A DNA stretch of 64,000 nucleotides, taken from contig NC_135561.1 in the NCBI RefSeq assembly GCF_964340395.1, forward strand, positions 1,307,501 through 1,371,500, read 5' to 3'. Source of the DNA: Glandiceps talaboti (lineage: Eukaryota > Hemichordata > Enteropneusta > Spengelidae). The notes under the pieces were generated by a model. That model was not told the origin of the DNA and did no database searches. It saw only the letters and a program-made list of their open reading frames with translations. Positions 3,301-31,167 of this stretch are shown here, piece by piece; the stretch's first letter is position 1; every line of letters begins with the position of its first letter. Position numbers and translations under genes: made by a program.

Positions 3301-6300
3301 GCTGTGTTTTTACCATATAGTTTGTCTGTTAGTGGGATAACGCAAACAGGGATTTAAATACAGTAACTTGTGGAAAGATTATAATCATGTAAGGCAAGGG
3401 CCAATTGAGCAGTCACTTTCTAAGAGACAAAGTTGAAAATAGTGTGTGTCTGCCACCCCCATAATCTTCATACACATAGTGTGTTTCTGAAACCCCCATA
3501 ATCTTCATACACATAGTGTGTGTCTGCAACCCCTTATAATCTTCATACACATAGATTGACTGATTTTCAAACTATGAATGTTCTGATGAAAGAAAAGGGA
3601 AAAATGTGACCTCAAAACTGAAGTTTGCTGTAGAAAACTAAAAGTAAATGTTTTATGTGAAATATAAGGGGGAGGGGGAAATAGGGTGTGTGTGAATTGA
3701 AAAATCTATGAAAATCTACCCAAATTTATCAGATTTACCACTCTGTTACCAGGGTTACAAAACTACAAAGTTCCTTACTGAAATTATGGTGCAATGTAGG
3801 AAAATTATGGTGCAGTGTAGGAGATTTGCCAGCTACCTGATCCCCGATCCCCTCCCCACTCATATCTGATCCCCCGTCACCCTCCCCATCCACACATACT
3901 CACTGTTACCAGGTCTTACAATTTTATTTTGGGTCATAAAACTTAATTCCTTGCACTTTTTTGTTACAATGTATGTACAAATAATTTTAATAGTATAAGT
4001 TACCATTTTCTTTTACTTTGAATGGAGTGAGAGGGCACTGTATGTTCAGTCAACTTTGATAGCATAGATTTCTTTCATTTTGATAGTCTAGTGCTTCATC
4101 AAATCTCAAGATCTCTCTTTACCAACTTGAGGTCTTGAGATGAAATTTTTATTTCACCCGAAGCCACGCCCAGTCATTAAATCATGTCTTCATTAAACCA
4201 TTCAATCACAGAATTCTGCCCATAATAAGTTAAGTGTTTTGGGGGGTAGTTATTTAATGTCCAAATATTTTACACTGTTTACACCATTCTAAGAGTTGGG
4301 GTTTATTCATTTGAATGATTTCTCAGTTAGGTAGGTGAGGTCAGAGAGGGTTCCATACCATGTTAGCATCTAGACTACCATTTTAAATACAGGTATGGAG
4401 TGAGAGGGCAGTGTATGTTCAGAAAACTTTAACAGTAACCAATTTCTTTCATTTTAAATACAGGTATGGAGTGAGAGGTCGTGAATTACTAGGAACTGTA
4501 GGTAAAACAATGGTATCTGGAGGTGGAACATTTGGTTTATTTATGGCAATAGGAAGTGGAATTCGATGCTAGCAGTGAATGAACTTTGAACTTTGAACTT
4601 GACTGTATTTTGTGAACTGAAATAGATGGACAACATAAAGTGATTTGATAGTTATACAGCTCTGAAGAATTACAGCATCTATATCACACTTTGCCAAGAA
4701 TTTCTTTTGAGGTGATCTTTGTCAATTTGTGTTGATAAAAAATCCAGTTTGTGAACAATTATAAGTTGACTTTTTCATTTAAAGTTTGAACCGACCAACG
4801 TTATGACATTAGTATACTTTGTAACAATACAATTTCATAAAAGTTATTTGTGGTCTTTGTTTCAATATCATTAATATCACAATTAGTGTGAGATACAGAT
4901 GTACATGTATAGAATTGACAATTCTCTCTGAACAACGCAACAAGCGTTTGGCCTCTATTTATCTGCCATTATACAAAGTGTAATACTGGTTATGAAGTGT
5001 GATGTCATAAACTTTATTGTTTCACATAATTCATATCCGAATAAACATATTTTGTTTATATGAAAGTATGAGAATTTAATGTTTATTTTTTGCTTTGTGT
5101 ATATTTGTGTGTGTGTGTGTGTGTGTGTGTGTGTGTATGTGTGTATGTGTATGTGTATGTGTTGGGATGGAGAAGAGGATAGTAACCTATGCATCCTTGG
5201 TGTTGGTTTTTCTGCTTGATCCAACATGTTGATGACAACCCACCCTGTGCTAAGTGTATTATAACAATAGTCAACAAAGCTGAGAAGATTTTATCATGTA
5301 CTACTTATACAGACTGAGACATAAATACTGTGAGTGGAAAAATGATTGTCAACAAATTATAATGTTCATTTAAAACTTGTCAAAATGGCAAATAATCCAT
5401 AAACCAGGTGAGTGAGTGAGTGAGTGTCTCTCTCTCTCTCTCTCTCTCTCTCTCTCTCTCTCTCTCTCTCTCTCTCTCTCTCTCTCTCTCTCTCTCTCTC
5501 TCTCTCTCTCTCTCTCTCTCTCTCTCTCTCTCTCTCTCTCTCTCTCTCTCTCTCTCTCTCTCTCTCTCTCTCTCTCTCTCTCTCTCTCTCTCTCTCTCTC
5601 TCTCTCTCTCTCTCAAAAACACTTTATTTTTAACTTGTAAATATCATTGTAGTAAAAGTGATACCTGAACATCAAGTTTACATCATAGACTTTTTTTCAA
5701 CTCACCATACAGAGAGATATTTCCACTTTGCTTGAGAACTCATTTTCGTATAATTTCATATTACTAATTTGCATTCTCTTTCGTAGTTGGCTTTTCAGAT
5801 ACTTTTCCTGTCACATGGTCAATCAATGTAAATCTACATGTAGCCAGTCAGTAATAAAAACACCCCATCAACATTATTCAAAGGGGCATTCTCCTCACCT
5901 CTCCGCTCCCCTCCTTTCCCCTCCCCATTCTATACTCCTTTCCTTGGCAATCCCATTCTATACTCCTTTCCTTGGCAATCCCATTCTATTACCTAAAGAT
6001 CCCTGTCACTTACCCTTATCCGCTATAACTTTGGTATTATCCAGTGGATTTTCCATGCCAGGATATGAATTTCCGAATGATAGGTGATTGATTTTGTGAC
6101 TTAGATTAAACTGGGAAAGAGAAAAGAAGTAAGTTGAATCTGAAATTTCTTGTCAGAGAATGTGTCAAAATAATAATCTACGCTTAATCTATATAAATAT
6201 ATTTGTATCCAAGGTAGGTGTAACCAGTGTGACTGACATATGCAAATGAGCATATCAGCCAATCAGGAGTCAGTAAATAAATCAATCTTGTACACCAAAC

Positions 6301-9300
6301 TTTAGGGAAATTATATATATAGCTTTAACCACTTTTTGTTACAAAAACTTAGATAAAAGACAATCTTCCAGCTGTACAAGTGTAAAATATAGAAACATTA
6401 AATTGATACCAAGTACACAAATGGAATGGTGCATTTCCCAAGATGCACCATTCAAAATGGCAGGTTTGTATATGGCTTTACAGCTGATAAACATTGATAT
6501 TGTATGAAATTGTACAGACATAAAGATAAACATGTGACTGTTACAAGGCGTACCTTTTCTCCTGAAAATGGTTGTAAATCATGTACATGTACATGATGTT
6601 GTTGAAAACTTTTACCTGGAGCAAAGTGAAAGTTACCAGCAACCTGTGGAAGGGAGAAGCCAACAATTTTCATATTTAGAAAAATCACTAGCCCTATATG
6701 TCTTGAAATGACAAAGTCTCCTATCTCGTCCTTCACATGGTTTGATGACCAGGTTAGAATAAAAACATCAAAACCCATTTTGATATAGGACATTATTAAA
6801 GGAAACCATATTGAAGTGTTACACATCAGCAGTGAGCACATGATATTCTGGTTGCATGTATTAGCTTGTATGTTAACAAAAACATGTCAGGGTGGGGGTG
6901 GGGGATGGGGGTGGGGTGGGATTGGGTCAGAAGTGCCTGACGTGGGACAACTCAAAGTGCAACAAGAATAGTGATTTACATCTTATTCATAGATTTTATT
7001 TACAGTTGTTTATTTTCATTTTTGTAATTCATAGAGAAGCCAACAAACTTAATGATAGAGGACTGACTCCATAACAAATGTTTCAAATTTCTCATAAATA
7101 GTTGAACAAATCCTGACTCTGATGTGTTGCTTGACCACTTTTGTCAAAATAAGAGTGAGATGCTGTCAAGTGGCCATTTCTTGTAGTTGTTTTCTTCTTG
7201 TACATTCTGCTTCATCCCTCTTGTTTTAACAGCAGCAGTTAGGATTTAACCATGTGCGATTTATTTAAATAAAGTGTCTACATATCTAGACATACATGTA
7301 GTCATGAAGTCATGGTGTGTAGTAAATTACCCAAGTATTCTAATGGCAAGAATTAAATTGTATAGCGCCACCAACGACCAAGGTGTAGAGTTACTTTGTA
7401 TATTCATACCTTATTGACTTCCAAATGTCCAAATACTTGGCAACCTTCACCTTGTTGTAACTTCAGTTTATCTGACCAACCTTCTCTCTCACATTGTACA
7501 ATACCCTTCGGATTACTAAATGCCCAACCTTTCCGTCTGTAAGCTTCCCTCACATCCTCACAAGTATTGCAACAACTGAAATAGACATCAATTCTCAGAA
7601 ATCGCAATATACAAATAAAAATGCTATCACAGACAACATACAATTAAAAAGACAAATACTACATAGATCTATAAAAATATATGCAAGACTAAATATGATA
7701 AAAGGCTGTGAGATACATATGCATAGTACAGGGCTGATGATTACTATTGAAGTGAAACATATGATTAATAGATGACATCATTACATGTAAATGTAATAAA
7801 ATATACACAAATTTTCAAAATCTTACCTCAAATCTTTTGTTTCAGCGCCATAACAACTTTCACATCTGTTTGGATCTAGTACCTCTTTATCTGCTGCCTA
7901 AAGGGATATTATTAAGATTAATAGTTTTAAGTTTTAAAGTTTGTGGTGGATTTCAAATATAGATGTCATCCATTTCAAGACTACCACAAGAGGGCGCTAT
8001 TCAGAGGAAAGGTCTTTGCACTCTCATGCTGAAGTAATATATGATGCTATACACCTATAGGCTAGCATTTTGAGAACAATGATGCATAGAATGAAGTGTT
8101 TAAGACTACTTTATCAGTATGATCCTGGAATCTAACAACTGTACAAATCTTCTTGTCAAAATCTCTTGTATTTTGAGGTCTAACACAAGTTTCATCTGTA
8201 TGATATACACTGAGAACCCAACCCTTCTTTGGTATTGTCCAAGACCACAATGAGTGCTATTAATTAGGAAAATCTGTATAGCTAGGCCATTGATAAGTCA
8301 TGGCAATGCTGACACTAGGGGGCGCTATTGTATGAAAAGGTCTGATTAGCCCAGTGATAAGTCTTGGCAATACTGAAACAAGGGGGCGCTATTGGATGAA
8401 AAGGTCTGTTAGCCCAGTGATAAGTCTCGGCAATACTGACACTAGGGGGCGCTATTAGATGAAAAGGTCTGTTAGCCCAGTGATAAGTCTTGACAATACT
8501 GACACTAGGGGGCGCTATTGGATGAAAAGGTCTGATTAGCCCAGTGATGTCTTGGCAATACTGACACATGGGGCACTATTGGATGAAAAGGTCTGTTAGC
8601 CCAGTGATAAGTCTTGGCAATACTGACACTAGGGGGCGCTATTGGATGAAAAGGTCTGATTAGCCCAGTGATAAGTCTTGGCAATACTGACACATGGGGC
8701 ACTATTGGATGAAAAGGTCTGATTAGCCCAGTGATAAGTCTTGGCAATACTGACACATGAGGCACTATTACATAACACTGTAAATGTCCACACACTGTAA
8801 ATGTCCACACACTGTATTTGATCTCAACCTGAATATAGCCTCAACTGAAAATGTAAAATCAAAACCATAATTCATGGTGCAAATTGGATACTCTGGCAAA
8901 AATAAGAAGAAAGCATGCAAATCCAAGCTAATCAAGTGAAAAGTAACTACAATCACATGATTTCAACCTGCCAATGAAGGATTTGTGATTTGCTGAATGC
9001 TTGTTCGTACCCATTCGGAAGACTTTGAATCTGATGATGAACGTGTGAAGCTTTCATCATATTCACATTGATCGTAGAGGTCAACTTTTGAAAGTGAATA
9101 TGAATATGAATATGATGGTAGCTTCACACTCGTGAACATTACACCTGAACGCACATATTGAGGTCAGACTAAACAAAGGGCTATTGTAATGTCCACCACT
9201 AGGTGGCGCTATTGACAGGTGAAAAGAATCTGAAGTTTTCTTACATCTATATCTTTTACTTCATCACTTTTGTCACCTAAAGACTTTTCCTTCTCTGGTT

Positions 9301-30825: not shown

Positions 30826-31167
30826 GTACTGGTACCATGAATATAATGGTATTTAAACAAATATTTTAGGGAAAAGACAAGTTGACATTTGCCGCCATTT
30901 CGCTTTAGTTGTAAAACAAAAGTTTGACTATAGCGTACTAAATATATAGCCATATAATTTATGCAAGTAAATATATTGATTTGAAATATTCAGAATTTAC
31001 CAGTCAAATTGATTCCATTTCATGCTGGTTTATATTGGTACAAATATTATTTCAGAACCAAAATACAGATGTTCATAGAAACCAAAACTTAGAATGTAAT
31101 GTTATTAATTTATCAGCAAATACCAATGCAACTTTAAAAGGGCACAAAATTAGTTTATTCATTTCTG

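Follow-up and report, generated by a model that had tools for sequence, protein, structure and literature searches.

Tandem repeats lie over the splice sites of several protein-coding genes in a 64-kb stretch of the Glandiceps talaboti genome (contig NC_135561.1, positions 1,307,501 to 1,371,500; hereafter the window), which raises the question of how such arrays arise and how the genes live with them. In this window, taken from a 590-Mb genome, 39 coding exons were modelled and 72 splice boundaries were mapped, and four genes were recognized: ERGIC3 (minus strand), ROMO1 (plus strand), a CYP4-like P450 (plus strand) and LPIN (minus strand). A first-pass annotation of the same DNA had reported duplicated splice boundaries in three genes. 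This was confirmed, and the pattern recurred in 6 of the 97 arrays in the adjoining 190 kb. We consider it likely, with a probability of about 0.8, that the arrays are minisatellites of the kind called 'mirages' in amphioxus, that is, bystander duplications over an exon end which were tolerated and then amplified.

In the P450 gene (20265..30473, plus strand, 12 coding exons modelled, PF00067), Tandem Repeats Finder (TRF) reported 54.0 copies of a 39-bp unit at 20899..23005, with the donor boundary of coding exon 2 (20853..20932) inside the array at 20932. Each unit consists of 34 nt of exon-like and 5 nt of intron-like sequence, reading TCA(A/T) before the junction and GTAAG after it. The 54 donors were spaced exactly 39 bp apart, and the GT was intact in 54 of 54. 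Splice sites were scored with a matrix trained on the window's own sites, for which the median real donor reached 9.1; all 54 copies scored 9.3-9.6, and the real donor, which is the first array copy, scored 9.3. Ten unit types were found among the 54 copies, with 5 of 39 positions variable and none of these in the donor GT. Copy 1 has a base absent from the other 53 copies, which agrees with the cluster-edge exclusion reported, in the sections of that paper available to us, for amphioxus globins (PMC3087553). Homogenisation with the edge copy excluded was seen for the P450 array only. When exon 2 was run on to donor 2, an in-frame stop was met just beyond the normal 80-nt exon, so that every later donor would also include this stop.

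The ERGIC3 gene (344..17653, minus strand, 10 coding exons in the window and the 3' end beyond it; its NCBI model contains PF13850 and PF07970) carries two such arrays. The donor of coding exon 2 (13528..13598, minus strand, in our exon model and in NCBI model P0001) lies at 13528, inside 41.5 copies of a 51-bp unit at 11420..13547. The exact donor AAGGAG/GTAAGT (slash, exon-intron junction) was present in 41 copies, and 12 unit types were found among the 40 complete units. Splicing from donor 2 would lengthen the exon by 51 nt, in frame and without a stop, splicing from donor 3 would lengthen it by 107 nt with no stop within the exon, and a stop was introduced by donors 4, 6, 11 and 21. The acceptor of coding exon 4 (9245..9402, minus strand, in P0001) lies at 9402, inside 8.0 copies of a 47-bp unit at 9377..9751 (TRF). 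This unit contains TTTACTAG/ATCT, which was exact in 7 of 8 copies, each exact copy scoring 7.2. The true acceptor is the copy nearest the exon body, and the exact acceptors upstream of it all bring a stop (6/6). The three arrays had been described as starting at the boundary; instead they span it, with 34 (31 by self-match), 20 and 26 nt on the exon side for the P450 donor, the ERGIC3 donor and the ERGIC3 acceptor, respectively.

The spliced ERGIC3 and P450 proteins were 100% identical to the NCBI Glandiceps talaboti models over the entire query, the P450 model P0121 having 4 extra N-terminal residues that perhaps come from an upstream exon. ERGIC3 was also 84% identical to the Ptychodera flava protein, in an alignment covering the whole query. 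Neither NCBI protein (P0001 or P0121) contained array-derived or inserted residues, suggesting that the copy adjoining the exon is the one used, namely the first donor or the last acceptor. In the ERGIC3 and P450 gene models, the exon-proximal copy is thus the only one used. Decoy sites scored like the real site, and higher than it in one array of the neighbouring block described below. As for the source of the repeats, the donor arrays of P450 and ERGIC3 gave one match each in the 590 Mb, at their own locus, in a search that skips very common words. A dispersed satellite or a transposon-borne repeat was ruled against for these two arrays, each being single-locus, and their sequences fit young arrays that would have been amplified locally.

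The adjoining 200 kb upstream (contig 1107501-1307500, 10,000 bases masked) was taken as a second sample, hereafter the block. Its exons were called by an exon finder trained on the window, which exactly recovered 33 of the 39 exons of that same window. Five arrays lay over boundaries of strong exons by the exon finder, and a sixth was assigned by eye. TRF described them as two donor arrays in UNC45 (57 bp x 5.1 copies and 87 bp x 2.9) with an acceptor array in the same gene (39 bp x 11.6), two donor arrays in an IRS-like gene (44 bp x 15.7 and 40 bp x 4.2), and one donor array in an FMN reductase gene (74 bp x 3.0). UNC45, the PH domain and FMN reductase have Pfam support; the name 'IRS-like' was given from the PH domain together with tyrosine motifs. 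The three FMN reductase donors had equal scores of 12.7, the 16 IRS-like donors scored 6.9-9.2 with 9.1 for the exon-proximal one, and the 11 UNC45 acceptors scored 2.0-7.3 with 3.6 for the exon-proximal one. Among the five donors of the UNC45 57-bp array (block 184994-185281), the exon-proximal one was the weakest, at 2.4 versus 5.9 for the four decoys; the match of this array to a boundary rests on a donor shifted by eye, a correction sought only beside arrays. Minisatellite arrays with a period of at least 10 made up a high share of the block, 31,452 bp of the 190 kb unmasked.

These observations can be joined into one proposed course of events. In a genome where tandem repeats of local origin are very abundant, a short duplication would sometimes span an exon end. 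Splicing would keep the copy adjoining the exon body, the 5'-most donor or the 3'-most acceptor, and because this copy would still be spliced, the extra copies would be intronic and tolerated. The array would then lengthen and be homogenised through unequal exchange or slippage, and coding constraint would meanwhile preserve the exon copy. In this scheme we infer the splice choice in RNA (through proximity and exon definition), the way in which the arrays were amplified, and their near-neutrality. As an extra factor, boundary arrays may persist for longer and so grow to more copies, because deletions reaching into an exon with a functional splice site could not be accepted. Several points weigh against this explanation. 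The splice choice is taken from NCBI annotation models of two genes, and some alternative sites appear harmless, since ERGIC3 donors 2 and 3 bring no stop. Use of the proximal site is assumed for the UNC45 57-bp array, the decoys there being stronger. Furthermore, the excess of several-copy arrays at boundaries (8 of 55 versus 2.06 expected) exceeds what plain bystander duplication predicts.

This excess was measured against a null in which every array was represented by a single unit placed at random positions. The one-unit null was preferred on the ground that growth is internal to an array and does not engulf boundaries beside it. This decision affects the outcome: when whole arrays were placed randomly in the window, 5.60 of 29 were expected to hold a boundary and 3 were observed. 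With the one-unit null, 3 of the 29 window arrays (period at least 15, score at least 50) held a boundary versus 1.76 expected (P 0.26). Across six period, score and copy settings the window P ran from 0.32 down to 0.007, the lowest only for many-copy arrays, and arrays of at least 5 copies gave 3/8 versus 0.41 (P 0.006). The block with curated boundaries gave 6/97 versus 2.49 expected (P 0.035), and block arrays of at least 2.5 copies gave 6/55 versus 1.36 (P 0.002). For window and block together, with the reservation that all copy-number cut-offs in this analysis were chosen after the data had been seen and that the block is the window's neighbour, the counts were 9/126 versus 4.25 (P 0.026) for all arrays, 8/55 versus 2.06 (P 0.0013) at 3 or more copies, and 6/30 versus 0.91 (P 0.0008) at 5 or more. 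When only gene spans were considered, 9 of 62 arrays held a boundary versus 4.96 expected (P 0.051), and at least 5 copies gave 6/15 versus 0.99 (P 0.0005).

The outcome in the block depended on the exon list. For the curated list, 48 of 210 predictions were kept, those with a score below 18 and low-complexity ones being dropped, and the boundary lists were drawn up without untranslated exons. Automatic exons with a score of at least 12 gave 9/97 versus 7.89 expected (P 0.40); thresholds of 15, 18, 22 and 28 each gave 5, versus 4.91 (P 0.56), 3.23 (P 0.23), 2.29 (P 0.08) and 1.80 (P 0.036), respectively, so looser thresholds erase the excess. TRF arrays of fewer than 2.5 copies held a boundary in 0 of 51 cases, with about 1.4 expected; a two-copy case is the ROMO1 pair described below, which is sub-threshold. 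The comparison of exon-end overlap with random placement, which the first-pass annotation had proposed for the whole genome, was thereby carried out over about 254 kb and came out divided: an excess was found at 3 or more copies, and the window alone was at chance level. These results are suggestive of an over-representation of several-copy arrays at splice sites, which is not settled. They also hint that any excess has more to do with how arrays grow or survive than with how they are born, 0 of 51 being a small count.

An excess of this kind could also be expected if splice junctions were mutational hotspots for tandem duplication, through R-loops or AGGT-centred breaks, an origin that had been suggested for the arrays and that we regard as improbable. 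The surplus at cuts of at least 2.5, 3 and 5 copies is in its favour, but the surplus over all arrays is weak (P 0.026 for both samples, 0.051 in gene spans and 0.26 in the window) and varies with the threshold of the automatic exon calls (P 0.036 to 0.56). The 0 of 51 low-copy arrays lend no support to a hotspot of birth, though this sample is small. AGGT-centred breakage in particular is made less likely by the exon-side overhangs, which in ten cases were 31, 20, 26, 15, 62, 24, 13, 37, 5 and 4 nt, spread over 4-62 nt and not clustered. Genome-wide word counts also conflict between two donor words. The word AGGTAAGT had 28,973 single, 3,473 two-copy and 2,699 three-copy matches, and the reversed word 36,815, 1,528 and 922; this is 2.9-fold more two-copy matches per site, but single arrays yield dozens of matches. 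Two-copy starts per site were 12.0% genome-wide for AGGTAAGT versus 8.9% for random words of the same composition, the latter in 254 kb and by a slightly different count. The second donor word showed the opposite, with 2,065 for AGGTGAGT versus 4,720 for its reverse (without single-site counts). That splice junctions are favoured genome-wide for the expansion or persistence of high-copy minisatellites, and that very many genes carry ladders of near-identical competing sites, is possible but rather doubtful.

The duplicated segments might instead be on their way to becoming new splice sites, which would make the arrays intermediates in intron gain or sliding. Intact donors or acceptors in most units and the in-frame, stop-free ERGIC3 donor 2 would suit this proposal, and published accounts, in the parts accessible to us, contain such a model for amphioxus globins (PMC3087553) and a case in potato (PMC4974935). 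We nevertheless hold it very unlikely here, since the duplications sit on pre-existing introns, and since stops result from P450 donor 2 and from all six upstream exact ERGIC3 acceptors. The earlier suggestion that the arrays move or create introns also finds no support in the NCBI products of ERGIC3 and P450, which have no residues added at the arrays and show no new intron bounded by two copies, or in the full alignment of ERGIC3 to Ptychodera flava. A marginally smaller chance is given to arrays that are functional, with multiple identical sites tuning splicing, U1 binding or transcript level. The GT is unchanged in 54 P450 copies and GTAAGT in 41 ERGIC3 copies, and the decoys are as strong as real sites; but the host genes are unrelated, and the P450 array varies at just 5 of 39 positions, so that recent homogenisation would account for the intact sites with no need of selection. 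The assembly of long near-identical arrays is difficult, and copy number may be off. Collapse or inflation of repeats in the assembly is the least credible explanation of all, as the copies carry variants in non-uniform order, the same anatomy is found at several loci, and the flanking coding sequence is intact.

Mirages of amphioxus were reportedly described by Canestro et al. in 2002 (NAR 30:2871). In the available parts of two other papers they appear as minisatellite-like duplications of intron-exon boundaries, with a model of intron gain attached (PMC3087553, PMC3902484), and occur in the PGBD5 and troponin C genes (PMC3902484). The remark of the first-pass annotation that it knew of no description of such arrays is therefore superseded, and its intron-gain proposal is likewise already contained in the first of these papers. 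As far as those parts go, the amphioxus mirages, including those of Adh3 and globin, are like the present arrays in spanning the boundary on the donor or acceptor side and in keeping AG/GT in many copies. Their gene products appear normal, and the Glandiceps protein models of ERGIC3 and P450 are as expected; an edge copy escapes homogenisation, as in the P450 array. Glandiceps is a hemichordate with up to 54 copies per array, whereas amphioxus is a cephalochordate with 6 and 3 copies in the BflGb6 haplotypes (PMC3087553). Another difference from what is described there is that a single Glandiceps gene can carry more than one array, as do UNC45 with three and ERGIC3 with two.

In human, a minisatellite, presumably that of IFI6/6-16, is said to offer many splice donors (Turri, Cuin and Porter 1995, NAR 23:1854; cited in PMC2572611, on G1P3, and in PMC3618361). 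To judge by the title, the transcript makes use of more than one donor, whereas the two Glandiceps NCBI models use the exon-proximal copy only. In 1989, Rogers reportedly proposed that duplication of an exonic AGGT segment creates a new intron. This model shares the duplicated splice-site letters with our arrays, as does the intron gain by tandem genomic duplication in potato RdRp, for which part of the report was available (PMC4974935); in Glandiceps, by contrast, the duplication falls on a boundary that was already there, and no new intron results. In human segmental duplications, internal tandem repeats at exon-intron boundaries are also reported to alter gene structure (PMC2812944). According to the available text, they are TRF-defined minisatellites like those of Glandiceps, but they belong to recent paralogues and are tied to novel introns, and no new intron was seen in Glandiceps. 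A hemichordate mirage was not found among the literature matches listed, judged by title and the start of the abstract. As far as these searches go, the kind of array is already known, and the phylum, the copy number and the density, about 254 kb containing nine TRF arrays that cover coding splice sites, are new.

The arrays extend mirages from amphioxus to another phylum and provide a natural series for splice-site competition, with 54 equally strong donors or 8 to 11 acceptors. The acceptor arrays are the sharper case, because a plain 5'-to-3' scan for AG would come upon wrong AGs before the right one. The UNC45 57-bp array sets proximity against strength, a weak proximal donor facing stronger decoys. 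Glandiceps RNA could reveal which copy is chosen, test exon definition and show whether arrays seed new introns. If junction-favoured expansion or persistence held across the Glandiceps genome and in amphioxus too, it would be an ancient trait of deuterostomes and a constant source of material for intron sliding and gain.

Five arrays had been listed in the window by the first-pass annotation, and TRF returned three of them, the P450 donor array and the two of ERGIC3. A fourth, at the last acceptor of ROMO1, is a weak 71-bp duplication including 15 nt of exon, which TRF did not report at a score of at least 40 and which was left out of the array counts. The ROMO1 last exon (4464..4572, plus strand, PF10247) uses the downstream member as its acceptor. 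By alignment, the upstream copy lies at 4380..4463 on the plus strand, with its AG at 4391-4392; the real acceptor follows 71 bp downstream. An older ROMO1-related stretch (ATGGAGTGAGAGGGCA...TTTCTTTCATTTT) at 4022..4081, plus strand, was about 80% similar on visual inspection of the alignment. ROMO1 (3089-4572) sits within an intron of ERGIC3, in the reverse orientation, and the two genes are neighbours in human. A tRNA-Pro (CGG) gene also lies within an ERGIC3 intron, at 1892-1963.

The fifth of the listed arrays, over the P450 stop codon (30471-30473) and 3' untranslated region, proved to be a real but degenerate repeat (30437..30699, plus strand, 63 bp, 79% matches) with 4.2 copies by TRF rather than 6-7, and it covers no splice boundary. 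The description of the nearby minisatellites as exon-free was correct in that 26 of the 29 arrays held none of the 72 boundaries; an LPIN coding exon, however, holds a 45-bp tandem duplication (a multiple of three) at 45937-46028. The ERGIC3, ROMO1 and P450 identities are backed by Pfam, and the name LPIN was read from the gene's own sequence. Near-palindromic CTATAGG / TCCTATAGGA satellites lie in a P450 intron (28482-28939) and just 5' of the LPIN start codon (50557-50679), and are possibly one dispersed family. A P450 intron also contains a 35-nt inverted repeat at 27785-27867, 97% complementary and with 13 nt between the arms, which looks like a small hairpin element. In the block, a 29-bp unit (CTTTAATATGGATAGAGCCATAGTGCTAG) was found in two arrays 2.4 kb apart (block bases 119366-120271 and 122700-123968), and its presence in two separate arrays suggests that some units may move locally. 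Elsewhere in the genome, many P450 family matches were clustered in about 0.3 Mb (contig C4:14995109-15288197).

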